DNA of 64,000 nucleotides from Roseomonas sp. OT10. GTDB lineage: Bacteria; Pseudomonadota; Alphaproteobacteria; Acetobacterales; Acetobacteraceae. The notes beneath the pieces are model-generated. The model did not search any database and had not been told where the DNA came from. It saw nothing but the letters and a program-made list of their open reading frames with translations. Position numbers and translations under genes: made by a program. Positions 1 through 12,263 of this stretch are shown piece by piece. Position 1 is the first letter of the stretch; each line of letters starts with the position of its first letter. The stretch is taken from positions 222,494 to 286,493 of the forward strand of contig NZ_CP087720.1 of assembly GCF_020991085.1 (NCBI RefSeq). Reading direction: 5' to 3'.

Positions 1-2192
1 GCCTCGGCGCAGACGCCAATGGGGTCGGCCTGGAGCCGGCGGGCGATGCCCTGCAGGATGGAGAGCAGACGGTCGGTCGCGAATTCGATCGTCACGCCGC
101 GCGGCGCGAGCGCTACGAAGCGCCGCATGTGCTGGTCGGACGGCGTCGCCCAGAAATTGTCGCGCGGCGACGGTCCCGGCTCGGGGAAGACCCGGGCCTC
201 GCGACGGTAGAGGACGTCCACCTGCCGGCGGTATCCGGCGAGGGTCGCAGAGGAGGCGAGAATCTTCGGCCGCGCCCCGCAGAGTTCCTGCTGGAGGTCG
301 TCGTAGAGCCCCTCGTAGTGGGCATCCACCGCGCCGAGACTGTCCCGGAGGAGGTGCAGCTCGTCCTGTAGGCGGTAGGAGGGTCCGAACAGGGCGGGGT
401 CACAGGTCAAGGCGGTGGGGGTCGCATTGCAGCCAGGGACGAGGCAGCCCTTGGGCGTCTTGCTCCGCGGCGAGTATGTCCACCCGTGCCCCGCCCTGGG
501 GCACCGTCCGAGCGGCGGGCCGACCAGGCCCCGCATGGACGCCTGGAAGGCGATGCTGGCCGCCTTGTCGAGCGTTCCGACGACGACCGTGGGAAGGAAC
601 CGGTAGATCTCGTTGTCCACCACGAAGATCGGGAGGGGGCCGTCGGTCCAGGCGCATCCCGGATTCCCGCACCGGTGCTCCAGCCGCCAGAGGGTCTCGT
701 CCAGGCCGATGGAGACCTGCTCCTCCCGACAGAAGGGGCACTGCTCGACGACCTTCGCCTTTTCGAGCTTCGCCTGGCTGTAGGGGTACCACTGGGCCGT
801 CGTCTCGGCGTCGGGGTCCAGCCTGTTCGGAGTGGATCCGTCGCCGACGAAGAAGCCGAGGGAGAAGGGATCGCCGCCGATCCCCTCCTCTCGGCGGACG
901 ATCTCCGCGCCGGCGAGGGCATTCGCGAAGCGCTGGGTCTGCTGCAGGGAGAGGAGGCGGAGCGGGAACCGGCTCCACGCGGTCACGCCGCTATCCTTCC
1001 CGCGGAGACGGTCGAGGAACGCCGCGGTCACGAGCAGCCCGAGGTAGGTCTCCGTCTTCCCGCCACCCGTCGCGAACCAGACGATGTCGGCCGTCCCGCT
1101 CTCCGCCGTCGGTTCGGCGACGGCCCGTAGGTTCGCGAGGAGGAAGCCGACCTGGAACGGACGCCAGGCGTCGTATTTCCCGCTCGCCGAAATGGCGATC
1201 GCCCGGTTCATGAGGCGGAAGCACCGGAGCAGCCGGTCGTCCCCCCTCAGCAGGTCGAGGCCAGCTTGGATCCGCGCGATCTCCGTCCGGAAGCCTTCCG
1301 CGCCGCGCTGCGCTTCCTCCCGCATGGCGGCCGACCACCACTCGGTCGCGGCACGCCCGTCCAGGACCTCGTCCGACCACACCCCATCGCCCCAGGAGCG
1401 GTGTGCGGTCGCCAGCCTCTCGAGCGCAGGGATGGGGTCGGCCGCGAGGGTCGCGAACCGGAGATCCGGCGCTTCGAACGCCGGGTTCCAGAAGTGCGGG
1501 CGACGACGGAGGCTGGTCGGGGCGTCGACTGTCCGCAGGCCGCCGCCCTGCAACTCCTCAACCCCGCAGTTCTGGCCGTAGGCCGGCACCGATCTGTCGT
1601 AGCGGAACGAGTCTGGGAGGGACTCGAGGGAGAAAGGCCTCGTCGCCAGCCCGCTCAGCTCCAGCGTGCACTCGTAGAGCCGGGTATCGACGCCGGTATG
1701 CTGTTCGGGGGAGCGATTGACGAATTCGACGACGAGCTCCGGCGAGCCGTCCCGCCCGACCCCGACCTCGACCCGGACCTCGGCACGGTGGACGTCGAGG
1801 CCGGTAGCGGACCGGAGCGCCTCCTCCAGCGTATCCATGCCGAACGGGGCCTGACCTCCGACGATCGTGCACGGGACGAGGACCCTGCCCATCCGGGTCT
1901 TTGTCCACTCCCCGTCGTCCTTCAGCCAGACCGCACAGTCCACCCCGACCTCGAACGACCAGGGTCCGGCATCCCTGGGCCGAACCCGCAGTCCGACGGC
2001 GCACGGCTCAAGACGCTCCGCGCGATCGCCACGCGGGTCGTTGCCGACCGCGTCGGCAGGCTGGAGGCGACCGAGGAAGTACTTGCCTGAGGGAGCGTGC
2101 TCCGACCGCGCGTCGTCCGTGCCCCTCGCTGCGGCGATGACCCGGGCATGGAGCCACTCGGAGAAGATCTCCGATGCGCGATACTCGTCCAA
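1..2192 (-). CDS. drmA: DISARM DrmA-type helicase, 3' end outside window
   Basis: This open frame runs from a TTG start at 2192 off the left edge, giving about 730 codons with no stop in the window. The start has an AGGAGG site about 7 bases upstream and lies 10 bases after the sigma-factor stop, so the two genes are probably one operon. Visible motifs are WRPFQVGFLL, then a Walker A of the form ATGGGKTETYLG, a Cys motif CPFC...CGNPGC, VVDNEIYRFLPTVVVGTLDK, LQDELHLLRDSLG and ILASSATL. This motif order is that of DrmA, the SF2 helicase of the DISARM anti-phage system, usually 1000-1300 residues. The C-terminal helicase domain and any drmB or drmC lie outside the window. A remote DrmA paralogue in another defence system cannot be excluded. 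Confidence 0.85.
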   Translation of the reverse strand, partial: MDEYRASEIFSEWLHARVIAAARGTDDARSEHAPSGKYFLGRLQPADAVGNDPRGDRAERLEPCAVGLRVRPRDAGPWSFEVGVDCAVWLKDDGEWTKTRMGRVLVPCTIVGGQAPFGMDTLEEALRSATGLDVHRAEVRVEVGVGRDGSPELVVEFVNRSPEQHTGVDTRLYECTLELSGLATRPFSLESLPDSFRYDRSVPAYGQNCGVEELQGGGLRTVDAPTSLRRRPHFWNPAFEAPDLRFATLAADPIPALERLATAHRSWGDGVWSDEVLDGRAATEWWSAAMREEAQRGAEGFRTEIARIQAGLDLLRGDDRLLRCFRLMNRAIAISASGKYDAWRPFQVGFLLANLRAVAEPTAESGTADIVWFATGGGKTETYLGLLVTAAFLDRLRGKDSGVTAWSRFPLRLLSLQQTQRFANALAGAEIVRREEGIGGDPFSLGFFVGDGSTPNRLDPDAETTAQWYPYSQAKLEKAKVVEQCPFCREEQVSIGLDETLWRLEHRCGNPGCAWTDGPLPIFVVDNEIYRFLPTVVVGTLDKAASIAFQASMRGLVGPPLGRCPRAGHGWTYSPRSKTPKGCLVPGCNATPTALTCDPALFGPSYRLQDELHLLRDSLGAVDAHYEGLYDDLQQELCGARPKILASSATLAGYRRQVDVLYRREARVFPEPGPSPRDNFWATPSDQHMRRFVALAPRGVTIEFATDRLLSILQGIARRLQADPIGVCAE

Positions 2193-2202
2193 GCGGTTCC
2201 TC

Positions 2203-3336
2203 CTACTCGACGAAGGACTTCAACGGGCGGCTGATACGGGGATGCTTCAAGCGCCTCAGCCCCTTCGCCTCGATCTGCCGGATCCGCTCGCGGGTGACAT
2301 TGTAGCTCCGCCCAATCTCCTCCAGCGTCTCGGGGCGGCCGGTGTCCACTCCGAAACGTCGCTTGAGGATGGCCTCCGTCCGGGGCGGCAGCACGCGGAG
2401 GGCGGATGCGACGTTCTTCGTGAGAGCCCGGTCGATGGCGACCTGCTCCGGCGACGGGTCCTCGCAGGGTATGATCGAGATCAGTCCTCCACCCTCGCCT
2501 TCGTCGTCCAGCGCCGCTTCGAGGGACACCACTCCCGTCCGGATGGCCTTCCTGACCCGCTGGACCCGGCGCTGGGACCACTCAAGTTCGATGGCCATCT
2601 CCTCCAGGGTCGGCGAGCGGCCATGCTCCACGCCGAAGCGATCCTCGGCGCGGCGGAGCTTCAGCATGTCCTCGGCGACGTGCACGGGGAACCTGATCGT
2701 CGTGCCGCGGTCCACGATCGCGCGGGTGATCGCCTGGCGGATCCACCAGGTCGCGTAAGTGGAGAGCTTGAGTTCCCGCGTGTGGTCGAAGAGCTCGACG
2801 GCACGGATGAGCCCGGGAACCCCTTCCTGGACGAGGTCCTCGAGCGTGAGGCTGGAGTAGCGAAGATGGCGGCGGGCCACCGAGTACACCAGGCGCATGT
2901 TGCACTCGACGAGGGTCTCGAACGCCTCCTTCCCGAGCGCGACCACCTGCCGCGTGGCGTGGTCGGAGGCGACGGTGCCTTCGGCGATCGCTACCTCCAT
3001 GCGCCGCCCCTGGAGGTAGCGCCGGCAGAGCTCGCCCTCCTCCTTCCGGCACAGGAGGCGATGGGCCATCAGCCGGTCGAAGACCCCACGTCCGGCACGA
3101 CTGGCGACCTGCGGAGCCGTACCTACCTCCGCCTCGTCGTCCTGAAGCGGGATCCCGGCCTCCGAAAGAGCGCGGAAGAGGGCGGCGCAGGCTTCGGGAT
3201 TCAGGCCCCGCCGCTCAATAAGGAGTTCCACCCGTGAGTGCTGGATCGGGCTCTCCGCTCGCGAATAGTCGGCCCGCAGTGTCCGCACGACCCCCTCGAC
3301 GAGTTCGCGCTGCTCCTCGTCCACGCCCGGTCCCAT
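2203..3336 (-). CDS. Sigma-70 family RNA polymerase sigma factor in defence operon
   Basis: The 377-residue protein has a region-1.1-like N-terminus (VELLIERRGLNPEACAALF), a full region 2 with LEDLVQEGVPGLIRAVELFD and STYATWWIRQAITRAI, the FPVHVAEDM segment of region 3, and a region 4 helix-turn-helix (LEEIGRSYNVTRERIRQIE). It resembles group 1/2 RpoD-like factors and not ECF factors, and is shorter than RpoD. It ends 10 bases before the DrmA-like helicase start, so co-transcription is likely. A sigma factor of this type is not a standard DISARM gene. It may direct transcription of the defence genes or be a decoy of phage promoters; neither is shown. Family assignment is firm, role unknown. 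Confidence 0.9.
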   Translation of the reverse strand: MGPGVDEEQRELVEGVVRTLRADYSRAESPIQHSRVELLIERRGLNPEACAALFRALSEAGIPLQDDEAEVGTAPQVASRAGRGVFDRLMAHRLLCRKEEGELCRRYLQGRRMEVAIAEGTVASDHATRQVVALGKEAFETLVECNMRLVYSVARRHLRYSSLTLEDLVQEGVPGLIRAVELFDHTRELKLSTYATWWIRQAITRAIVDRGTTIRFPVHVAEDMLKLRRAEDRFGVEHGRSPTLEEMAIELEWSQRRVQRVRKAIRTGVVSLEAALDDEGEGGGLISIIPCEDPSPEQVAIDRALTKNVASALRVLPPRTEAILKRRFGVDTGRPETLEEIGRSYNVTRERIRQIEAKGLRRLKHPRISRPLKSFVE

Positions 3337-3395
3337 CCTCGAATGTGGAGGATCGTCCCATTATCCGCGATGATGATCAACGGGGGGACGGGAAC

Positions 3396-3824
3396 GTGAA
3401 TCCATTGCCGGACGCGGTCTCGGAAAGGACGCGAGCCCGGATGAGGGCGACGAAGGGCAAGGATAACCGAGGCGAACTGGCCCTGCGGTCGGCGCTCCAC
3501 CGGCTCGGGCTACGCTTCCGTCTCCAGCGTCGTCTCCTGCCTGGCTCCACCCGTACGGCGGACGTCGTCTTCCCCGCCGCCCGGGTCGCGGTCTTCCTGG
3601 ACGGCTGTTTCTGGCACGGCTGTCCCGTCCACGGGACCTGGCCGAAGCGAAACGGCGACTGGTGGCGCGCGAAGATCGAAGCGAACCGGCGCAGGGACCG
3701 CGACACGGACGAGCGACTGACCGCGCTCGGGTGGCGGGTGGTCAGGGTCTGGGAACATGAGGTCCCAGCCGAGGCGGCGGAGAGGGTTTCCGGTCTCGTG
3801 AGGGGAGAGCCCGCCCCTGGGTGA
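3396..3824 (+). CDS. vsr: Very short patch repair (Vsr)-like endonuclease
   Basis: The 142-residue product follows the Vsr pattern: an N-terminal basic segment ending MRATKGKDNRGELALR, then RTADVVFPAARVAVFLDG, the zinc-site motif CFWHGCPVHG and a C-terminal GWRVVRVWEHEV. Vsr enzymes nick at T:G mismatches that arise from 5-methylcytosine deamination and often travel with C5 methyltransferases, one of which lies at 9.1-10.1 kb. I chose the GTG start at 3396 because it gives the usual short N-terminal arm after a G-rich ribosome site. An ATG at 3441 is the alternative. It is divergent from the sigma-factor gene, about 60 bases away, so the shared gap must hold both promoters. It overlaps or abuts the next gene. 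Confidence 0.88.
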   Translation: MNPLPDAVSERTRARMRATKGKDNRGELALRSALHRLGLRFRLQRRLLPGSTRTADVVFPAARVAVFLDGCFWHGCPVHGTWPKRNGDWWRAKIEANRRRDRDTDERLTALGWRVVRVWEHEVPAEAAERVSGLVRGEPAPG

Positions 3825-3949
3825 GGCGACGCCCGGAGCGGGTGACCGGACCTCGAGTGTGGCCCTGGGGATGGTCCTCTATGCCGTCGGGCGCGAGGAT
3901 GCTGGCTGGGTCGCCCTCGTGGGGCGTCCAGATGCGAGGACGGGGGGCG

Positions 3950-4972
3950 GTGAGCGATACGAAGGCGAAGGTCCGGGATCCGAAGGTGCCGCTTGCGGCG
4001 ATGGAGGGTGCCGCGGACGTGCGCTCCGCCGTCCGGGACTGGAAGGCGCGGTTCGCGGAAGGGGCCGCGCGTCGGCCCGGTGCCGAAGACATCCTCCTCC
4101 ATCCCGATCTGGGCCTGTGGGGCCATTTCGGCAGCTGGCGGGGCCGGATGGTGAACACCTTCGGCGCGAGACACGACGAGCCCGGCGGCAACCGGGTGGT
4201 CGAGATCAATCCCCCGAACGAAGGCATCGCCCCGGGACTGCAGGGAGTGCTGGCCCGAGACGCCGCCGGCCGACGCTGGGTGCTCCACAAGGGGCGCATG
4301 TCGGTTCCGGAGCGCCGCATCTCGACGGCGGAGTTCGCGCGGCTGTCCCGCACCCGACCCGTGGGCGTGCGTTTCTCCGATGGTTCCGAGGTAGCCTGCC
4401 ATCCCGTCGCGGATCTCGACGCGCCGGCGGGGGATGTGCAGCGCCGCATGGCGGCTTACGTCGCCGAGTGCCGGCGGGTTCGGGACATCGTCGCCCTGGG
4501 TGAGGTCGCGGCGGATCGGAACGAGGCAGTCGAGCGGGCGGAGCGGAGCTTCCCGGAACTGCGGGGCAGCTACGAGGTCGGCGCGCAGGACGCACGGACT
4601 GCCCATCGCCACCATGCGGACGTCTGGCACGCCCTCGTCGCCGAACTGGACGCCCTGGAGGTCAGGCACGGCAACGGGCGCGTCGGGCGATGGGGCCCCG
4701 ACCTGCGGACCATCGGGGGTGGCGCGGTCTTGTTCGAGATCAAGGTCGCGGCGACGGCGGCGGACCTGCAGACGGCGGTCGGCCAGCTGTTCCTCTACGA
4801 GAAGCTGCTTGAGGAGCCGCATCGCAAGGTGGCGGTCCTACCCGCGGGCGATCTCGGACGGGTCGAGGAGCTGCTCGCATCCCTGAACGTGGAGATCCTG
4901 CCATACCACCGGCGGGGCCGCCGCGTATCCTTACCCCGGAACGTCCTTCGCCGCATCGTTGGCCGAGGGTGA
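3950..4972 (+). CDS. Probable PD-(D/E)XK nuclease, restriction-like
   Basis: About 340 residues from a GTG at 3950; an upstream ATG at 3821 overlapping vsr is possible. The N-terminal half has no domain I recognise. The C-terminal part contains GRWGPDLRTIGGGAVLFEIKV followed by a helix (AVGQLFLYEKLL), which fits the acidic residue, E-x-K lysine and following helix of a PD-(D/E)XK nuclease fold. The position between vsr and an HNH endonuclease suggests a DNA-cleaving role in the defence island. The fold is inferred from a short motif, and the substrate is unknown. Confidence 0.6.
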   Translation: MSDTKAKVRDPKVPLAAMEGAADVRSAVRDWKARFAEGAARRPGAEDILLHPDLGLWGHFGSWRGRMVNTFGARHDEPGGNRVVEINPPNEGIAPGLQGVLARDAAGRRWVLHKGRMSVPERRISTAEFARLSRTRPVGVRFSDGSEVACHPVADLDAPAGDVQRRMAAYVAECRRVRDIVALGEVAADRNEAVERAERSFPELRGSYEVGAQDARTAHRHHADVWHALVAELDALEVRHGNGRVGRWGPDLRTIGGGAVLFEIKVAATAADLQTAVGQLFLYEKLLEEPHRKVAVLPAGDLGRVEELLASLNVEILPYHRRGRRVSLPRNVLRRIVGRG

Positions 4973-5063
4973 TCCAGGGGGATCGGATGCCGGTCCGTCG
5001 GGTCCAGGGCGACCGAATGGGGCTGACAAGAGCCAAGGGCATCGCGACGGGGTTCGAAGGCGC

Positions 5064-5975
5064 ATGACGAAGGCTGTCTTCGACGTTCGGCCGGGTTCCG
5101 GCTACGACGACGAGGTCGTCCGCCGATATCACTTCCCCCGGCAATATCTAGCGGCCGCGCTCGCGGCGGTCGGTGACTGGGTCGTCTACCGGGAACCCCG
5201 CAGGGGTGGCGGCAGGGCGGGTTACGTTGCGGTCGCGCGGGTCCGCAGCGTCGAGCCGGATCCCGCCCGGGTCGGTCACTCCTACGCCCACATGTCGGAC
5301 TACCTCCCATTCGACCGTCCGGTCCCCCTTGATGGGCCGGTCGGAGCCTACGAGGCGATCTTGCGCGGAGTGGCCGGTGCGGACCGCGGGAGGACGCTCC
5401 AGGGCCGATCGGTGCGGGCCCTGGTGGAGAAGGACTTCGTCGCGATCGTCCATGCCGGCCTGGCCGAGACGTTGGACCCCGCCAACGCCGTCCGGCTTGG
5501 GTTGGCTGGGGCGGAGGTGGACGACGAGACCGCCTACCTCGTCCAGCTCCCCGAGCTGGAGCACGAACGCCGGATCGAAGCGCTCCTCGTGAACCGCAGG
5601 ATCCGGAACGCTGCCTTCCGCCGGAGCGTGCTCGACGCCTACGAGGACCGCTGCGCGGTGACGGGGCTCCGGATGGTCAACGGCGGCGGCCGGGCGGAGG
5701 CGCAGGCGGCGCACATCCTGCCCGTCGCGGACGGCGGCCCCGACGTGGTGCAGAACGGCATCGCGCTGTCGGCGACGGCCCACTGGCTGTTCGACCGGCA
5801 CCTGATCTCCCTGACAGACGATCTCGCTCTCCTCGTCTCGCACAACAAGGTGCCCGCCGCGCTGAGATCGCTGTTCGCTCGGCAGATGCAGTTGGTCCAC
5901 CTGCCTTCGGATCGAAGGCTGTGGCCTCGACCGGAGTTCGTGGCGAGGCATCGCGCCATCTTCGCTTCGGGGTGA
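5064..5975 (+). CDS. HNH endonuclease with N-terminal YHFP domain
   Basis: A 303-residue protein if it starts at the ATG at 5064; the frame is open from 4959. The N-terminal half, with RYHFPRQYL, GDWVVYREP and GRAGYVAVARV, looks like the small beta-rich domains placed before HNH nucleases, possibly PUA/ASCH-like and used for recognising modified bases. The C-terminal half is an HNH domain: DRCAVTGLRM, AQAAHILPVADGGPD, NGIALSATAHWLFD. This domain layout is typical of modification-dependent or methyl-sensitive restriction enzymes, so it may act as the nuclease for the C5 methyltransferase nearby. It belongs to the plus-strand run vsr, nuclease, HNH, unknown. Confidence 0.82.
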   Translation: MTKAVFDVRPGSGYDDEVVRRYHFPRQYLAAALAAVGDWVVYREPRRGGGRAGYVAVARVRSVEPDPARVGHSYAHMSDYLPFDRPVPLDGPVGAYEAILRGVAGADRGRTLQGRSVRALVEKDFVAIVHAGLAETLDPANAVRLGLAGAEVDDETAYLVQLPELEHERRIEALLVNRRIRNAAFRRSVLDAYEDRCAVTGLRMVNGGGRAEAQAAHILPVADGGPDVVQNGIALSATAHWLFDRHLISLTDDLALLVSHNKVPAALRSLFARQMQLVHLPSDRRLWPRPEFVARHRAIFASG

Positions 5976-6003
5976 TGTCGTGCGGGCTCGCCGATCGGCG
6001 GGG

Positions 6004-7884
6004 ATGCACGATCGAATTTCGGATACGTCGTGGCCGCCCCGGGGCCTGACGAAGGCGGAACTCGGTGGTATCAGCTGGTCCAGCGAGTGCCACCGGCTTC
6101 GATACGAGATGCGCGGAAGTTCACCTCCGAACACCTTGGCCAGGATGCTGAGGATCACGCACGAGGGCGTCCCCGAACACCTTAAGGAGTTCACCCGACG
6201 CCGGCCGGAGCTCTACGATCTCTACCTGGACGACCGCGGGCAGGCTCTGGTCGTCAAGGCCGTGGACCTCGAACTGATGAGGCGGGGAAGACGCCCGAGG
6301 ATGATCGCGGCGAACCTGAGCCGAGAGGTGCTCCAGCGGCTCACCCTGGACGACCTGAGCACCCTCACGCACTACCGCGACTGCGCCGACCTGGAACTGC
6401 TCCGCAGGATCCGTCCTGAATTGCAGTCCTTCATGGCCCGGCGGGATCGACCCTCCGGACCGTACTACGCCGCGCTCTCCCACATCGCCGACGTGGCAAG
6501 CCTCGGGGTCGGGACGTTGTCGCCGGGGGTGCTGGCTCGTACCGCGAGGCATGGCACCCACGTCGAGGTAGGCAGTGTGAAGGAGGGGCACGGTCTCAGG
6601 TGCGCGGAGCTGAACGAGGCGGACCGAACGCTCGTCGGACTGTGGCAGTCCGGTCGCGACGGACCGGACCCACGCTCCGGAGACCACAAGTTTCGGAAGT
6701 CCTTCTCCGTCCTGTTCCTCGCATTCGCTCGACTGGCCGAGAAGCACGTTCTCGACCTCTACCGTTGTGGTCTGGGCGTGGATGCTCGGGACGTCTCGAT
6801 CACGCAGGTCCTGGAGCCCTCCGACCTTTGGAGAACGTACGACGTCCAGGCCGACATCCCGCTCGACGTCAAGAACGCGACGAGCCGCCGGGAACGGGTC
6901 CGGCACGCCTTTATCGGCAAGTTCAAGCGTATCGAGAGGGAGGATATCGCGATCGCAGGCGTGGCTTCGCAGGTCGATTACGACCGCGTCGCCCCGGGAA
7001 CGGACGGCGGAATCAGCGCCACGGTTCGCCAGACCTTCCTCGGGATCGCTTCCCTGTCGTCGATCAAGCGGATCGAACACGCAATTAACGATCTGCCGAA
7101 CCGTGTCCAGAGGATGGAGATAGCCTTCTACCGGAACTCCCTGCCGCCTTGGGCCTTCGAGTTCCCGCGCCCCGTTATCGACCACGAACGCCTGCTGGTG
7201 CTGGCGGAAGCCTTCGCATGGCGGCCCGAGACAATCCTCTGCGCCGCCATCGCTCGTGGACGAAGCAAGGAGGTAAGGCCCTACCGGGGTCTGGACGAGG
7301 AGCGGAGAAGTATCGTCGACCTGTTCGCGAAAGTCGTCGATCGCGCCAGCTACACGAAGGCGACCATCGCCCTGTTCGCGATTTCGGAGTTCGTCAACCG
7401 GTGCCTGGTCCACGAGGATCCGACGCCTTTCGTCCGATTCCTCCGCGAGATCGTCTCGGTTGAAGACTTCACCAACCTTCCCGAGAAGACCGACGTGCGG
7501 TTGGTTCCGTATCTGAGACGGCAACGGCTGAAGTACGAGATCTCGAGCGACTGCGAGGCGAGCTGCTGTGGCGGCCTATACGATCCTACGCACTCGATTC
7601 GAAATCTCCTGGAATTGCTGGAGCGATGTGGGCAGGCGATCACGAAATACGACATCACCTTCGAACACTTCGATGCCCCGCACCCCCACATTCTATTGGG
7701 GCGGACCACCGAAGGGCTCATGCTCACGTTGTACGCTTACTGCGGTGGTCGGCTGGCCAGCGGCGCTTGGTGCAATAGATTTCCTCTGGTCGTCGGAGAG
7801 AATGCCATCTGCGACGGGTGTGGACGGCTCATCTGTGACGAGTGCGATTTTTGCTCGGAGGGATGTGGGAAGTCTCGGCCATGA
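6004..7884 (+). CDS. Unrecognised defence-island protein with zinc finger and nuclease-like motif
   Basis: About 626 residues; I do not recognise the family. Starts at 5980 (GTG), 6004, 6109 or 6145 are all possible, and 6004 has the best G-rich site. The middle holds TYDVQADIPLDVKNATS, in which D and DVK are spaced like the metal-binding core of PD-(D/E)XK nucleases, followed by a basic helix (RRERVRHAFIGKFKR). The last 30 residues carry a compact Cys-rich finger (CDGCGRLICDECDFC, then C). It starts close behind the HNH gene on the same strand. The 3' third is less GC-rich than its neighbours, which suggests separate acquisition. A nuclease or sensor role is inference. Confidence 0.6.
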   Translation: MHDRISDTSWPPRGLTKAELGGISWSSECHRLRYEMRGSSPPNTLARMLRITHEGVPEHLKEFTRRRPELYDLYLDDRGQALVVKAVDLELMRRGRRPRMIAANLSREVLQRLTLDDLSTLTHYRDCADLELLRRIRPELQSFMARRDRPSGPYYAALSHIADVASLGVGTLSPGVLARTARHGTHVEVGSVKEGHGLRCAELNEADRTLVGLWQSGRDGPDPRSGDHKFRKSFSVLFLAFARLAEKHVLDLYRCGLGVDARDVSITQVLEPSDLWRTYDVQADIPLDVKNATSRRERVRHAFIGKFKRIEREDIAIAGVASQVDYDRVAPGTDGGISATVRQTFLGIASLSSIKRIEHAINDLPNRVQRMEIAFYRNSLPPWAFEFPRPVIDHERLLVLAEAFAWRPETILCAAIARGRSKEVRPYRGLDEERRSIVDLFAKVVDRASYTKATIALFAISEFVNRCLVHEDPTPFVRFLREIVSVEDFTNLPEKTDVRLVPYLRRQRLKYEISSDCEASCCGGLYDPTHSIRNLLELLERCGQAITKYDITFEHFDAPHPHILLGRTTEGLMLTLYAYCGGRLASGAWCNRFPLVVGENAICDGCGRLICDECDFCSEGCGKSRP

Positions 7885-8111
7885 GAGCGGGTCGTCGTTC
7901 CTCCGCGGCAGGATGAAGTCCCACCGCCCGAGCTGGTGGCGCCAGTCCCGGGGAAATATCTGCACATGGTCGGTGATCACGCCGCCCACCCCGGGACCGG
8001 CAAGGGACGTGCGGCGCTCCGCCGCGCAGCAGCTCGCGAGCGAGCGGCCGCTTAAGCGGCGTTTTCCTGAGCGGATGCCAGGCAGCGTGCCCGCACCGCC
8101 CGCTGACGTTA

Positions 8112-9065
8112 GAGCCTGATCCGAAATTAAGTTGAGTGGTATCAGCGGGTTAGCTTGACGCCAGCCCAGGTCATTGATTCAGGGGTTTTTGCGAAAACTT
8201 CCGGAGATCAACGATGTGGACCGATACCACTCGGGCGCAGTATGCCCGTGCGGAACTGGCTTTGCCAAGCGATTTGACCGATGCCGAATGGGCACTGCTG
8301 GAGCCGTTCTTTCCGCCAGCATCGCATGTGGGCCGCCCGCGCAAGTGGCCACTCAGGCGGATTGTCGAGGCGATCCTGTATCTGCTGCGTGGCGGCCTGC
8401 CGTGGCGGATGCTGCCGCCCTGCTTTCCGCCGGTCTCGACGGTGCGGCGCTGGTTCTACCTGTGGCGGGACAATAGGCTGTGGTTGTCATTGAACCATGC
8501 TCTGTTGCTGATCGCCCGTGAGGGGACGGGTCGCGAAGCCTCGCCCAGCGCCGGGGTAATCGACAGCCAAAGCGTCAAAACCACGGAAAGCGGCGGACCT
8601 CGGGGCTATGATGCGGGCAAGAAGACCAAGGGCCGCAAGCGCCACATCCTGACCGACACCGACGGCAATCTCGTCCATGCGGTAGTCCACACCGCCGACA
8701 TCCAGGACCGTGACGGTGCGCCGCTGGTGCTGGCCGAGATCATCAAGCGCTTCCCGTGGCTGCGCCATGTCTTCGCCGATGGTGGATATGCTGGCGACAA
8801 GCTCAGGGACGCCCTCCGGCGGATCGGCAAATGGACCGTCGAGATCGTCAAACGGTCAGATGCCGCAAGAGGGTTTGTCGTCCTCCCGCGCCGTTGGGTT
8901 GTCGAACGCACACTGGCTTGGCTCAATCGGAACCGCCGCCTCGCCAAGGACTTCGAGCAGACCATCGCATCGGCTACCGCATGGCTCTTCATCGCCTCGA
9001 TCCAGCTCTTCGCACGCCGCATCGCAAGGCCATGAAATCACGCCGGATAATTATGAATCAGACTC
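8112..9065. mobile_element. IS5-family insertion sequence (IS427-like), complete
   Basis: A 954-bp element with imperfect terminal repeats beginning GAGCCTGATCCG on the left and GAGTCTGATTCA on the right (inverted). It is flanked by a TTA direct repeat at 8109-8111 and 9066-9068, the TNA-type target duplication known for the IS427 group. It carries one intact transposase gene. It sits exactly at the stop codon of the methyltransferase gene, and the duplicated TTA supplies that stop (TAA on the minus strand), so the gene is not damaged. Confidence 0.9.
8214..9035 (+). CDS. IS5-family transposase
   Basis: A 273-residue DDE transposase in a single frame. The N-terminal LTDAEWALLEPFFP and LRGGLPWRMLP segments are typical of the IS4/IS5 group. 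Catalytic motifs visible are VIDSQSVKT, VFADGGYAGDKL and WVVERTLAWLNRNRRLAKD. The gene fills the IS between its terminal repeats and looks functional. Confidence 0.95.
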   Translation: MWTDTTRAQYARAELALPSDLTDAEWALLEPFFPPASHVGRPRKWPLRRIVEAILYLLRGGLPWRMLPPCFPPVSTVRRWFYLWRDNRLWLSLNHALLLIAREGTGREASPSAGVIDSQSVKTTESGGPRGYDAGKKTKGRKRHILTDTDGNLVHAVVHTADIQDRDGAPLVLAEIIKRFPWLRHVFADGGYAGDKLRDALRRIGKWTVEIVKRSDAARGFVVLPRRWVVERTLAWLNRNRRLAKDFEQTIASATAWLFIASIQLFARRIARP

Positions 9066-10145
9066 TTAGGCCCGCTTGCCCATCCCCGGCACCGCGCGCT
9101 CGGCCATCGCCCCGGCGACGTGGGCGACGAGGCTCCTGCCGATGACCTCGCCGATCCGCACGGGCACAGCGTTCCCGATCAGGCGTCCCATGATGCTGAA
9201 GATGAGGGGCTTGCCCTTCTCGACGAAGCGGTAGCGTCGCGGGAAAGTCTGGAGGATGGCAGCCTCCCGCAGGGTGATCGCCCGATCCTGGGCAGGGTGC
9301 CCGAACCGGCCGTTCCCGTATCCGAAGCACTGCGTCGTCATGGTCGGAGCTGGGGCATCCCACTCCATCCGGCCGTACACGCTGGGGTAGGTCTGCCCCG
9401 TATCCTTCGCGTGGCACTTCGCGCGCAGCGACGCGTCCCAGTCGCGCCAGGTTCCGCCAGGCTTCGAAGCCCTGATCCGCCGCAGGTTAAGGTCGCTCAG
9501 GCGACACGCCGCATGCAGCGGATCGCGCGGATCGGCCTCCCCAGCCTCAAGGGGCCTGAGCTTGGCGATTGCCGCGCGGACGGTCCGCGCTTTCCTCTGC
9601 CGACCTGCCGGCGCGAGCGACACCGCACCGAGCCGGGAGGCCAGCAGGACGAGCCTCTTGCGCGTCTGCGGCACCCCGTAGCGCACGCAATCGACGACGT
9701 CCCAGGAGACTTGGTAGCCGGCGAGGTCGGCTAGGAACTGCGCGAAGACCGGGCAGTCCACGAGCTGCGGCACGTTCTCCATCGTGACGAGATGCGGCTG
9801 AGACTCCCTGACCAGGCGGCCGAAGTCGCGGACCAGGTCCCATTGCCCATCGTCGCGCCGACCCTTGCGGCTGTACGTCGAGAAGGGTTGGCAAGGAGCG
9901 CACCCTGCAAGCAATCTCACGGCACCCGCCCCGAACATCGCCTGCACCTCGCCTCCGGTCAGGTCGCGCACGTCGCGCTCGTGGAAGGCGGCATCGTTGT
10001 TGGCCTCGTATGGCACCTTGCAGTCGGGATCGAGGTCGATCCCCGCCACAACCTTCACGCCCGCGCGTGCGAGGCCGTGCGTCAGGCCGCCGACGCCACA
10101 GAAGAGGTCAACGCACTCGATCGAAGGAACCAGGGGCATCGTCAT
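9066..10145 (-). CDS. DNA C5-cytosine methyltransferase
   Basis: 359 residues with the conserved C5 methyltransferase motifs in order: I (DLFCGVGGL), IV with the catalytic PCQ (GCAPCQPFS), VI (MENVP), VIII (PQTRKRLVLLAS), a target recognition region, then QTFP and GNAVP (IX/X). It methylates cytosine at a sequence that cannot be read from the protein. It is the last gene of a coupled operon: its ATG overlaps the HEPN stop by 4 bases. The stop codon TAA lies inside the target duplication of the IS5 element, which leaves the protein whole. It could protect DNA from the DUF262/HEPN module, from the HNH enzyme, or serve as a DISARM-type methylase. Confidence 0.95.
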   Translation of the reverse strand: MTMPLVPSIECVDLFCGVGGLTHGLARAGVKVVAGIDLDPDCKVPYEANNDAAFHERDVRDLTGGEVQAMFGAGAVRLLAGCAPCQPFSTYSRKGRRDDGQWDLVRDFGRLVRESQPHLVTMENVPQLVDCPVFAQFLADLAGYQVSWDVVDCVRYGVPQTRKRLVLLASRLGAVSLAPAGRQRKARTVRAAIAKLRPLEAGEADPRDPLHAACRLSDLNLRRIRASKPGGTWRDWDASLRAKCHAKDTGQTYPSVYGRMEWDAPAPTMTTQCFGYGNGRFGHPAQDRAITLREAAILQTFPRRYRFVEKGKPLIFSIMGRLIGNAVPVRIGEVIGRSLVAHVAGAMAERAVPGMGKRA

Positions 10146-10873
10146 GCCCCGGCCCGCGCGGGACGGCGTTCCGGCCTCAGGTATTCATGGCCTGCGATCG
10201 CCGTCGCGAAGGATTCCACGACTTCGCGGAGGTAGGCAGCCGTGCCCTCCTTCAGCTTTCGGAGTTCGCTGACGGTGAACGTTCCGGCGCATTCGACGAA
10301 GGACAGGTTGCCGTGCGCCAGCTTGTTTCGGCGATGCCTGATGAACTCAAGCGTTCCCATCCCCTCGTGGAAGTGCCTCTTCACCCCGCGCTTCGTCTCT
10401 TCGGTCAGGCGAGCCTGCAAGCCGAGCCGTTTGAGCATCTTCTCAATGCGATCGTCGTCCCAGTTGCCGCCACCGCCGGAGACCTTGAAACCGGCTACAG
10501 GTGACCCTGCAACCAGCATCTCGAACATTTCCAGCGCTGAGGTCAGCCGCCTGTCGTAGACGAGATCCTCGTGGGTCCGCGCGATTGACCGTACCCACTC
10601 CAGCCGCACCCTGTCCGAGAGGTCGTGTGGCCTCCAGCCCTTGCCGTCGACGGCGGTGCAGACAGCCTCGACGCACTGCGTCGCGGTCGCCTCGACCAAG
10701 CTGTAGAGCAGCAGGAAGACTGTCGAGTAGAGGATCTTCTGCTGCTGCGGGGACACCTTCGGCCCGCTCCTCGGCTTGCCCGCCCCTATCTGCGCTTCGA
10801 TGCTGTCCAGCAGTTCGAGGTGCGCGTCGATCTCCTGGAGGCGCTCCTCGAACGCGGTGCGTAGGGCTTCCAT
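10142..10873 (-). CDS. HEPN-domain protein (MAE_28990-like), putative RNase
   Basis: 243 residues, mostly helical. The C-terminal half carries FIRHRRNKLAHGNLSF, containing the R-x4-H signature (RNKLAH) of HEPN domains, known as metal-independent ribonucleases in toxin-antitoxin, Abi and CRISPR systems. The layout is like the MAE_28990/MAE_18760 HEPN families, which occur beside DUF262 proteins and DNA methylases. The start overlaps the DUF262 stop (TGATG) and the stop overlaps the methyltransferase start by 4 bases, so translation of the three is probably coupled. An effector role, RNA cleavage upon infection, is inferred from family and context. Confidence 0.75.
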   Translation of the reverse strand: MEALRTAFEERLQEIDAHLELLDSIEAQIGAGKPRSGPKVSPQQQKILYSTVFLLLYSLVEATATQCVEAVCTAVDGKGWRPHDLSDRVRLEWVRSIARTHEDLVYDRRLTSALEMFEMLVAGSPVAGFKVSGGGGNWDDDRIEKMLKRLGLQARLTEETKRGVKRHFHEGMGTLEFIRHRRNKLAHGNLSFVECAGTFTVSELRKLKEGTAAYLREVVESFATAIAGHEYLRPERRPARAGA

Positions 10874-11985
10874 CAGGCGCTCAGCAGGCGGGTCCGGACG
10901 AATTCCATCCGGTCCCGCAGGCGGCGGATCGCGTTCGCCCCGTCGGACCCGATGACCTTCTTGAACTCTGCGCTGCCGATCCAGGCGGATACGTCCGGCG
11001 TCTGGCTTGCGAGCGCTGGACGCTCCTCAAGAGCCTGGAAGCTGCCGATCGCGATCGCCTCGAAGCGTGTGCGCGGCGTCTCCGTCCCCTTCGGGGTACG
11101 CCTGAACCCATGCGGGAACACCCGTGCGACGAAGCTCATCGTGTGGCGGAAGCGCTCTCGATAGCCGGCTTCAAGGGACGGATCTGCCTCGAAGGCGGCG
11201 TTCATCCTCTTCGAGTAGTCATACAGGAAGTCGGATACGCGGTCCTTGTAGCCCTCCAACCCGTCGCCGTAGGCGAAGAAGCGCGTCACCAGCTCTTCAC
11301 GCTCCCGCATGTTTTCCTGCGCCTTCGGCACCGGCGCCAACTCGCCGAACGCGGGATCCCTGGCTAGGTCGATCACCATCCGCACGAAGGGGCCGACCAA
11401 GGCCCCGCGCCGGACCTCGGCGGTGTTCGCAATCTTGCTGCCCGTGTTGATGCGCTCGAACAGGTCGAAGCGCGCCCGCTCGTCGGCACGCTCGTTCAGG
11501 ATGATGCCGCGGATCGAACGGTTGTTGGTCTTGCGTTGGCGGGACTCCGGCAGATCCTTGAAGCGGAACCCGGAGATCAGGTTGAGCGTGTCGAGCTCTC
11601 CCAGCCGAAAGCCTCCGAGGATGAATTGCTGGATGGTCCGCAGCCTCTGAGAGCCATCCACTATCTCCAGCCGTCCATCCGGGCGCTCCCAGAAGAACAG
11701 GAACGGGATGGGCAGGCCCATGAGGATAGACTCGACGAAGCGCGACTTCCTCGCGTCTTCCCAGGTGTCCTCGCGCTGATAGTCCGGGATGAAGAACGAG
11801 CCGTCCTCCATCTTGTTTGCGAGGATCTCGATCGTGTACTCGACCAAGTTGAATTCGATCCGCTTCGACTGTTCGGCTATCTGGGCCTCGGCTGCGGCCT
11901 TCTGCTCCTCCGTGAGTGCCGTGGGCAGCTCCTCAGCCGAGGCAGCCTCATCGCCTGCCATGTCTTGGGCGTCGCCCGAGGACAT
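10873..11985 (-). CDS. DUF262 (GmrSD N-like) protein
   Basis: 370 residues from the ATG at 11985, which overlaps the stop of the upstream gene as TGATG; a GTG one codon earlier is less likely. The DUF262 core is clear: FIPDYQREDTWEDARKSRFVESILMG, then LPIPFLFFWE and the IVDGSQRLRTIQQFI loop. DUF262 is a ParB/Srx-like fold found in type IV restriction enzymes such as GmrSD and in other nucleotide-dependent defence proteins. No HNH (DUF1607-type) domain is attached, so the partner effector is probably the HEPN protein that follows directly. It is part of the operon 12263 to 9066. Confidence 0.88.
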   Translation of the reverse strand: MSSGDAQDMAGDEAASAEELPTALTEEQKAAAEAQIAEQSKRIEFNLVEYTIEILANKMEDGSFFIPDYQREDTWEDARKSRFVESILMGLPIPFLFFWERPDGRLEIVDGSQRLRTIQQFILGGFRLGELDTLNLISGFRFKDLPESRQRKTNNRSIRGIILNERADERARFDLFERINTGSKIANTAEVRRGALVGPFVRMVIDLARDPAFGELAPVPKAQENMREREELVTRFFAYGDGLEGYKDRVSDFLYDYSKRMNAAFEADPSLEAGYRERFRHTMSFVARVFPHGFRRTPKGTETPRTRFEAIAIGSFQALEERPALASQTPDVSAWIGSAEFKKVIGSDGANAIRRLRDRMEFVRTRLLSA

Positions 11986-12263
11986 CACCGCACCCCCGGG
12001 CTTACGGCGCGCCGCGGTCCGGGCGCCGCGCGGTGCCGGTTGCCTCGGGAGCCGCGGCGATCCTTCTCGTCATCGGGCGACACCGGCAGCCCGATCGCGC
12101 GGAGCCCCTGCATGACGAGCACTCGAATCGTCGTGCCCTCCTCGGCGGCCCTGACGCGCAGCGCCCGGTGCAGCTCGGCACGGACGGGGGTCACGACCTG
12201 CACGACCGTGGCTGGTCTTCGCCGGGGGAGGTTGTCGCCGTGCTCTGCGAATCGGGTGGGCAT
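11985..12263 (-). CDS. Small ribbon-helix-helix-type DNA-binding protein
   Basis: 92 residues. The segment VVTPVRAELHRALRVRAAEEGTT followed by IRVLVMQGLRAIG has the strand-helix-helix spacing of a ribbon-helix-helix repressor, and the tail is basic. It is the first gene of the coupled operon with DUF262, HEPN and the methyltransferase, overlapping the DUF262 start as TGATG. The position and size suggest an autoregulator or antitoxin-like control protein. The assignment rests on pattern only. Confidence 0.6.
   Translation of the reverse strand: MPTRFAEHGDNLPRRRPATVVQVVTPVRAELHRALRVRAAEEGTTIRVLVMQGLRAIGLPVSPDDEKDRRGSRGNRHRAAPGPRRAVSPGVR

Follow-up and report, generated by a model that had tools for sequence, protein, structure and literature searches.

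An RpoD-like sigma factor as a core component of a class of DISARM-related systems

A stretch of 64,000 nucleotides from Roseomonas sp. OT10 carries, at its left edge, a gene for an RpoD-like sigma factor directly ahead of a gene for a DrmA-type helicase. The sigma factor belongs to the core of a distinct class of systems related to DISARM, for which we use the name sigma-DISARM; little doubt attaches to the class or to its gene make-up. The heart of sigma-DISARM is the RpoD-like sigma factor together with a DrmA-type helicase and a DrmB-like DUF1998 protein; a C5-methylase is usually added and a Vsr nuclease often, and lineage extras are a NERD-domain helicase ("NERD-helicase") in many Proteobacteria and DrmD- and DrmMI/IIG-like genes in many actinobacteria. 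The class is real, and it has apparently not been described before.

The 64-kb stretch (the "window", contig positions 222494-286493 of G000:C2) is the right-hand end of a 286-kb contig, in a genome of 5.69 Mb and three contigs. The original prediction, made from the window alone, held that the sigma and helicase genes form one operon whose left side had been cut off. The contig does continue there, and the left flank beyond the window edge was retrieved from contig C2 and read. The locus comprises the following features:

2203..3336, minus strand: RpoD-like sigma factor P0001, 377 aa (ATG at 3336, stop TAG at 2205-2203), named from Pfam, NCBIfam, profile comparison and a predicted model; a region-1.1-like segment at about residues 10-68 and a region 1.2-like segment at 85-118 are followed by regions 2, 3 and 4
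2193..2204, minus strand: sigma/drmA junction, with a 10-base gap at 2193-2202 and an AGGAGG ribosome site at 2199-2204
1..2192 in the window and on to C2:221647 (C2:221647-224685), minus strand: DrmA-like (YprA-family) helicase P0002, 1012 aa when whole, named from PADLOC and NCBIfam
C2:219938-221650, left of the window, minus strand: DrmB/DUF1998-like P0003, 570 aa, overlapping drmA by 4 bases
C2:218787-219872, left of the window, minus strand: C5-cytosine methylase P0004, named from PADLOC
3396..3824 (start approximate), plus strand: Vsr-type nuclease P0006, divergent from the sigma gene

The helicase open reading frame (ORF) opens with TTG at 2192, 10 bases past the sigma stop, and in the junction sequence, TAGGAGGAACCGCTTG, the Shine-Dalgarno AGGAGG overlaps the sigma stop. 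The arrangement as one operon, with the helicase gene having its own ribosome site, thus stands as proposed.

The assignment of the helicase to the DrmA type was borne out by PADLOC (DrmA, 3.5e-108), although the score on the NCBIfam DrmAS model, 389.5 bits, is well below the cut-off of 950. P0003 matches PADLOC DrmB at 9.7e-27 and NCBIfam DrmB_fam at 57.5 bits (cut-off 240), and has no Pfam match at E 0.001; as in DISARM, a DrmB (DUF1998) gene adjoins drmA at the OT10 locus, though at scores below the cut-off. The methylase P0004 scores 274.6 bits on DrmMII versus 281.7 on the general type II methylase model of PADLOC. Leftward extension had been expected to bring up DUF1998 and PLD genes. 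The first was found there, and a C5-methylase with it; no DrmC (PLD) gene was seen at the locus, none being shown for P0001-P0010 (for the two methylases, among the matches listed), for two left-flank proteins in PADLOC or for four in Pfam. Nor were DrmD or DrmE shown by PADLOC among P0001-P0010 and the further left-flank island proteins scanned; the scans for all three covered the larger nearby ORFs and not the smaller and farther ones. Calling the operon DISARM, as the original prediction did, is therefore right in part. A DrmA-type helicase, a DrmB-like protein and a methylase are present, but the proteins score under the thresholds curated for DISARM, and the helicases form a clade separate from the class 1 and 2 systems sampled. 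On these comparisons the OT10 locus belongs to a DISARM-related class and not to DISARM proper.

The best curated names for P0001 itself are MzaA, the sigma factor of the MZA defence system, and several RpoD models (NCBIfam). The MzaA model gives P0001 263.9 bits (cut-off 800) over only the C-terminal ~255 aa, and scores the host's own RpoD higher (433.1 bits); 0 of 299 genomes had an MzaA protein above the cut-off. Membership of MZA was rejected, since the MzaA cut-off is not reached and the operon partners are DrmA- and DrmB-like proteins and a C5-methylase. An MzaB match, weak at 46 bits, is found on the opposite strand about 5 kb past the methylase (L002:7274-9127).

The sigma family stands beside drmA far beyond a single replicon. 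A tblastn search of plasmids found one close relative, on a plasmid of Burkholderia aenigmatica, where a stretch of 11 kb includes a fragmented helicase gene along with genes for a DUF1998 protein, a methylase, a NERD-domain helicase and a sigma-70 factor. Two IMG/VR contigs classed as viral carry the set as well: L018 has sigma, drmA, drmB, NERD-helicase, vsr and dcm consecutively, and L017 starts inside drmA, so that the sigma position is beyond the contig edge. On both contigs the flanks hold tail-like and small phage-like ORFs (spotted by eye, with no search), and L018 also has a type I restriction-like unit; here the set is perhaps the cargo of a prophage or satellite. A scan of 84,980 species genomes, queried with the aligned helicases of OT10 (P0002) and L018, yielded 53 loci, in which drmB was counted 52 times, dcm 43, sigma 42, vsr 30 and NERD-helicase 19. 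The sigma gene is directly upstream of drmA on the same strand in 38 of them; in 17 of the 38 the drmA start codon overlaps the sigma stop by 4 bases, and in the other 21 it lies within -30 to +60 bases. The 42 sigma-bearing loci belong to the Actinomycetota (22), Pseudomonadota (16), Myxococcota (2), Acidobacteriota (1) and Planctomycetota (1). Neither outcome that had been named beforehand as telling against the prediction occurred: a DUF1998-type gene is present and sigma beside drmA is widespread.

A dedicated sigma factor had also been said not to be a standard part of DISARM. This agrees with a control in which none of 15 plasmid loci encoding other DrmA-like helicases, most of them classical DISARM by annotation or appearance, had a sigma ORF (E 1e-3); a sigma factor in defence does, however, have a precedent in MzaA. 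In all, 84 plasmid records had a DrmA-like match and the neighbours were examined in 16, of which one, the Burkholderia plasmid, had a sigma gene. A helicase search of 289 genomes matched 9; the 8 besides OT10, at 28-38% identity and many of them partial, are taken as probable members of other types, from identity alone. Within the 53 loci a DrmD-like cluster occurs in 14, 13 of them sigma-bearing, and an IIG/DrmMI-like cluster in 12 of the 42 sigma-bearing loci; all 13 and all 12 of these sigma loci are actinobacterial. A DrmC-like cluster occurs in 9 loci, one of them with sigma (L076), PADLOC having been run on L062 and L076 only.

Sigma is missing from 11 of the 53 loci: L030, which is cut by a contig end; L075, on a contig of only 3.4 kb where a DrmE-like gene lies upstream; L071; and the 8 loci of a "PLD branch" (L058-L060 and L062-L066), which have a DrmC-like PLD gene. 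In these 11 a tblastn search for sigma at E up to 1 gave nothing beyond one 38-residue chance match. A DrmE-like gene lies directly upstream of drmA in half of the PLD branch (L058, L062, L063 and L065), and the structure model of its product is poor (mean pLDDT 46.5). Locus L076, sister to the PLD branch, combines sigma, drmA and drmB with a DrmC-like PLD gene (1338-8296) and is intermediate between the sigma type and the sigma-less, DrmC-bearing branch. In L071, from Salinispora oceanensis, sigma has been lost, and the congeners L048 and L051 keep it. The L071 genome has three sigma-70 matches; because none is of the system type, the gene has not moved elsewhere in that assembly. The three loci make a ready natural comparison for the loss of sigma.

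The helicase tree (70 rows, from a quick search with midpoint root and some long branches; the partial L019, L022 and L075 were left out and L017 was not included) has a 54-row clade, made up of 44 sigma-bearing members, the PLD branch of 8 and two others, with 100% SH-aLRT support. The DISARM references, 6 of class 1 and 5 that bear PLD (class 2 type), fall outside this clade, so P0002 is inside neither the class 1 nor the class 2 clade. Since the PLD branch is nested within the clade, the simplest reading is that sigma was ancestral and was later lost or replaced there. In the sigma tree (77 rows; the long-branched L079 host factor was dropped, L078 yielded no ORF, and the L073 sigma ORF of 2165 aa, which has a wrong start, entered the trees by its C-terminal part alone) 45 system sigmas fall on one side and 32 host and other factors on the other, with a support of 76. 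A single origin of the system sigmas is thus the best tree, with moderate support, and is suggested but unproven.

Pairwise distances in sigma are correlated with those in DrmA at r = 0.93 (41 loci), compared with 0.96 for DrmB (51), 0.89 for NERD (19), 0.81 for vsr (29) and 0.68 for dcm (43), at a permutation p of 0.001 each and with L073 and L075 left out; the sigma correlation speaks for co-inheritance and is no proof of contact. Among seven close pairs of sigma genes, dN/dS was 0.29-0.35 in four and 0.05 in a fifth (dS 1.7, near saturation), two being saturated; the system sigmas are under purifying selection. A search of 15 host genomes gave 54 sigma-70 matches at E 1e-20. The 13 that start by query residue 30 are all the system's own sigma, as assigned by hand comparison of coordinates; the match to the L024 system sigma starts later, at query residue 92.

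The sigma protein retains what an RpoD-like factor would need. Pfam finds Sigma70_r2 (65.7 bits), r4 (63.1) and r3 (35.6) in P0001, all above the cut-off, which upholds the earlier placing of the protein as RpoD-like, with regions 2 and 4 kept, and not as an extracytoplasmic function (ECF) factor; the ECF alternative was rejected on the full set of regions 2-3-4. At E up to 1, 24 family members match r2 and r4 in every case, r3 in 22 and r1_2 in 17; P0001 itself matches only r2, r3 and r4. The region-1.1-like start that had been proposed has mixed backing. A comparison by hhalign with RpoD region 1.1 gave a probability of 89% (E 2e-6, a single comparison) against 0.4-15.5% for four control segments, and residues ~10-60 are confidently folded in the predicted model (mean pLDDT 86); the Pfam r1_1 model, on the other side, matched only one of the 24 members (E 0.014) and misses P0001. 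The best PDB matches of the model are SigA, HrdB and RpoD chains of initiation complexes, at low TM-scores (0.3-0.5) that are probably due to domain arrangement.

Conservation was surveyed residue by residue in 45 system sigmas (E. coli sigma-70 numbering). Those at the positions that we take to be for core binding, D403 and Q406, are present in 45/45 each; at the presumed melting positions Y430 and W434 are kept in 45/45 and W433 in 44/45, as is T429 in 45/45. Q437, assumed to read the -10 element, is found in 44/45, followed by R441 (44/45), R451 and P453 (45/45 each) and H455 (39/45). Among the residues presumably reading the -35 element, R584 is kept in 44/45 and E585, R588 and Q589 in 45/45 each, with R586 in 45/45. 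The variable exception is T440, which is T in 12 and E in 12 of the 45. In the 24-member alignment 22 of 28 invariant columns lie in regions 2.2-2.4, 3.0 and 4.1-4.2, and mean pairwise identity is best in regions 2 (0.52) and 4.2 (0.58), compared with 0.12 in the linker, 0.24 in region 3.2 and 0.18 in the C-terminal tail. The features of a group 1/2 (RpoD-like) sigma-70 factor, namely regions 1.2, 2, 3 and 4 and the core and promoter residues, are present. The possibility that P0001 is a recent copy of the host RpoD was rejected, since the two share 44.5% identity over 247 aa and the system sigmas group separately. Because the core-binding, -10 and -35 residues are kept, the system sigma looks competent to form a holoenzyme at ordinary promoters, with core-polymerase binding, recognition of the -35 and -10 elements and DNA melting all apparently within its reach and a specificity of the housekeeping type. 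The original prediction suggested that the factor may switch defence transcription or intercept phage promoters. A change of specificity towards a particular promoter set seems less likely, since the promoter-reading residues are those of a housekeeping factor.

Upstream of the operon in eight loci is a pair of elements, GAAC-N4-GTTC and, 24-25 bases on, NTGTCR-N3-N8-TAnnnT. The eight (L038, L042, L043, L044, L048, L051, L067 and L071) are among ten Micromonosporaceae loci; of the other two, L041 carries the second element and, with one mismatch, the first, and L073 has neither as an exact match. The pair was found nowhere else in the 53 loci (1.11 Mb), and 15 loci shuffled 20 times by mononucleotide gave no instance. 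The upstream alignment covered 13 loci of a single actinobacterial group, and a few fixed patterns were used to scan the others. In PMC9380542 the Streptomyces LexA motif is given as tCGAAC-N4-GNNCGa, which fits the first element, and PMC5656591 gives a mycobacterial consensus for RecA/LexA-independent damage induction, tTGTCRgtg-8nt-TannnT, tied to PafBC and ClgR. The second element fits this PafBC-type consensus except in the three bases after TTGTCR, which do not match "gtg". By these motif matches the system is probably damage-inducible through host regulators in these Micromonosporaceae, and the eight loci appear to be a case of a defence-type operon under both DNA-damage regulators, LexA and PafBC. 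In L071 the pair is kept and now stands in front of drmA; sigma being lost and the damage-type promoter retained, expression there need not depend on sigma. The 400 bases upstream of the OT10 sigma gene have no LexA-type box (three kinds) and no PafBC pattern.

What the sigma factor does in the system can be stated more tentatively. The reading that we would put first, at somewhat less than an even chance, is that it serves as the recognition or loading subunit for DrmAB at promoters on incoming DNA. The sigma factor would bind host RNA polymerase, and the holoenzyme would recognise ordinary sigma-70-type promoters on the incoming DNA; opening of the promoter would mark that DNA and expose a single strand, onto which DrmAB would be loaded by contact with sigma or with the holoenzyme in a presumed hand-over. 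The methylase, along with a locked state of DrmA, would spare self DNA, and cutting would fall to the linked nucleases. The sigma factor may thereby occupy the place held by the DrmE-like gene in part of the sister branch. DrmAB of the Serratia DISARM system binds DNA that is single-stranded or has a 5' overhang, a trigger loop keeping it locked otherwise, and its interplay with DrmD and DrmE is stated as open (PMC9142583). A recognition or loading role fits a promoter-opening sigma factor that is often made in step with DrmA and stands in the DrmE-like gene's place, and L071, which keeps a damage promoter without sigma, lends it support in that expression need not depend on sigma. Also on its side are the recurrence of sigma beside drmA, its absence from the control loci, distances that follow those of DrmA, purifying selection and the retained housekeeping residues, and TALON provides a parallel. 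A wider form of the loading idea is more doubtful: that promoter opening on foreign DNA licenses a helicase-nuclease machine, with a basal initiation factor as invader sensor and helicase loader, a bacterial counterpart of the TATA-binding proteins (TBPs) of TALON. The accompanying suggestion that some actinobacteria keep the entire set in readiness under a LexA and PafBC damage promoter is part of that reading and, within it, just as uncertain.

Several points weigh against the loading role and the picture of the class behind it. Sigma factors act nearly always in transcription, and no published anti-phage activity was found for any sigma-DISARM member. The 53 loci were seeded by two sigma-type helicases and sample their clade, not the whole DISARM family. 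Sigma is absent from 9 of the 53 although the drmA neighbourhood is on the contig (the 8 of the PLD branch and L071), and so is dispensable in some members; in four others (L031, L033, L034 and L074) it follows a NERD-helicase gene of convergent orientation, which is also its place on the Burkholderia plasmid. The idea that DrmE simply took the place of sigma is weakened by L059, L060, L064 and L066, half of the PLD branch, which have the methylase directly upstream of drmA and in which no DrmE-like gene was seen, and the name "DrmE-like" goes back to a weak match in L062 (23.2 bits, cut-off 80). Correlated distances are to be expected of any co-inherited genes, and an earlier sigma tree, with another model and one more row, placed the long-branched L079 with the system sigma L032.

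Almost as likely as the loading mechanism is that the sigma factor is a "takeover-proof" transcription factor, a holoenzyme of normal specificity that keeps defence genes (perhaps host genes also) on when a phage blocks or hijacks sigma-70, for example by an anti-sigma protein. In its favour are the holoenzyme and promoter-reading residues, all retained among those examined with the exception of T440, in an otherwise fast-changing sequence whose least conserved parts are the linker, region 3.2 and C-terminal tail (0.12-0.24); the system sigmas stand apart from host RpoDs in the tree, and MZA offers a second defence system with an RpoD-like sigma. The eight Micromonosporaceae operons count the other way, having host-type LexA/PafBC elements that are kept where sigma is lost (L071), as do the start/stop overlaps with DrmA in 17 of 38 loci, which suggest matched amounts of the two proteins, needless for a mere regulator.

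A further possibility, and an improbable one, is that the sigma factor is a guard or decoy that mimics host RpoD, such that phage anti-sigma or RNA-polymerase-modifying proteins bind it and DrmAB is activated, as in effector-triggered immunity. Its RpoD-like character throughout, the region 1.1 counterpart included, its fast evolution outside the functional core and its linkage to DrmA would all suit a decoy. Strict conservation of DNA-contact residues, however, would be needless in one, and phages without anti-sigma proteins would escape.

Sigma genes beside their targets are common, and with sigma directly upstream of drmA in 38 of 53 loci a dedicated regulator comes readily to mind, one that activates promoters unread by host RpoD, whether in its own operon or across a wider regulon. 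Regions 2.4 and 4.2 nevertheless keep housekeeping residues, and no conserved non-standard promoter was seen, the LexA box and PafBC-type element being all that the 13-locus alignment and few fixed patterns brought up upstream; we give this explanation a slightly smaller chance than the decoy. The idea of a chance neighbour, an RpoD-like copy hitchhiking in a defence island, can draw on RpoD-like genes in 336 of 72,556 plasmid and 192 of 50,697 phage records (E 1e-5) but was rejected as hard to hold: sigma occurs in 42 of the 53 loci and across five phyla, its members fall in one group, its gene often overlaps drmA, selection on it is purifying, its distances follow those of DrmA (r = 0.93), and all 13 early-starting matches in 15 host genomes are the system's own sigma.

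Sigma-DISARM can be set beside three kinds of known system. With DISARM of class 1 and 2 it shares a DrmA-type helicase, a separate DUF1998 partner in one operon and a methylase, and some sigma-bearing relatives also share DrmD-like (13/42), IIG/DrmMI-like (12/42) and DrmC-like PLD (1/42) genes. It differs in its separate helicase clade (full SH-aLRT support), in scores far below the cut-offs and in the sigma gene upstream of drmA, and at the OT10 locus in having no DrmC, DrmD or DrmE that was seen, with Vsr (in relatives the NERD-helicase) instead. With MZA (MzaABCDE) the likeness is an RpoD-like sigma-70 in a defence system, MzaA, the precedent described in PMC9523054; the difference is that the partners of the OT10 sigma are DrmA- and DrmB-like and that its match to MzaA is C-terminal only. 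TALON systems, as described in section 5 of PMC12458937, combine a YprA helicase and a NERD nuclease with TBPs. From that description TALON/TOTE resemble sigma-DISARM by function, in a promoter-recognition factor beside a YprA helicase and a NERD nuclease, and differ in having a TBP and not a sigma factor, a helicase of an ARMADA-like branch and a TPR-CSD protein. The likeness is drawn from the section's account, not from sequence comparison, and no homology of sigma and TBP is claimed. The legend to Figure 1 of the same article mentions uncharacterized DISARM-like classes, of which the article says there are many; in its text as searched no sigma factor is described, the word "sigma" occurring twice and both times for the supplier Sigma-Aldrich. 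With a DISARM-like helicase and a separate DUF1998 gene, sigma-DISARM may well be one of these classes. No description of a sigma-bearing DISARM-type system was found in titles and abstract openings, most subscription papers lying outside the search.

These observations suggest that some bacteria use the recognition of gene starts in antiviral defence. The targeting of DrmAB to incoming DNA and the tasks of DrmD and DrmE, the less-conserved subunits, are DISARM questions that sigma-DISARM makes testable with standard sigma mutants. Recruitment of promoter-recognition factors (sigma here, TBP in TALON/TOTE, MzaA in MZA) into immunity would appear to have happened more than once, and annotation pipelines gain a marker for a system that current models score below the cut-off.

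Two further genes follow vsr in the window:

3821..4972, plus strand: P0007, an ORF without a family match, with a D...ExK-like stretch seen by eye; membership of the locus is unsure
4959..5975, plus strand: HNH endonuclease P0008, a possible local accessory, named from PADLOC, Pfam and NCBIfam

The stretch in P0007 suggests a PD-(D/E)xK nuclease. P0005, P0007, P0008 and P0009 had no matches in the 53 related loci at E 1e-8; P0009 (5980-7884, 634 aa) has a cysteine-rich tail and is unmatched in Pfam, NCBIfam and PADLOC at E 0.001. At 9066-11988 a second C5-methylase, a HEPN (MAE_28990-like) protein and a GmrSD_N/DUF262 protein (best PADLOC match NsnA) are encoded on one strand with overlapping ends, as a separate putative defence unit. 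Farther left of the P0004 methylase are a transposase, a resolvase and other island genes, and the same island includes, at L002:7274-10799 (C2:212273-215798), the GHKL/HATPase protein that weakly matches MzaB, and a DUF4917 protein for which PADLOC gives the candidate PDC-S21.

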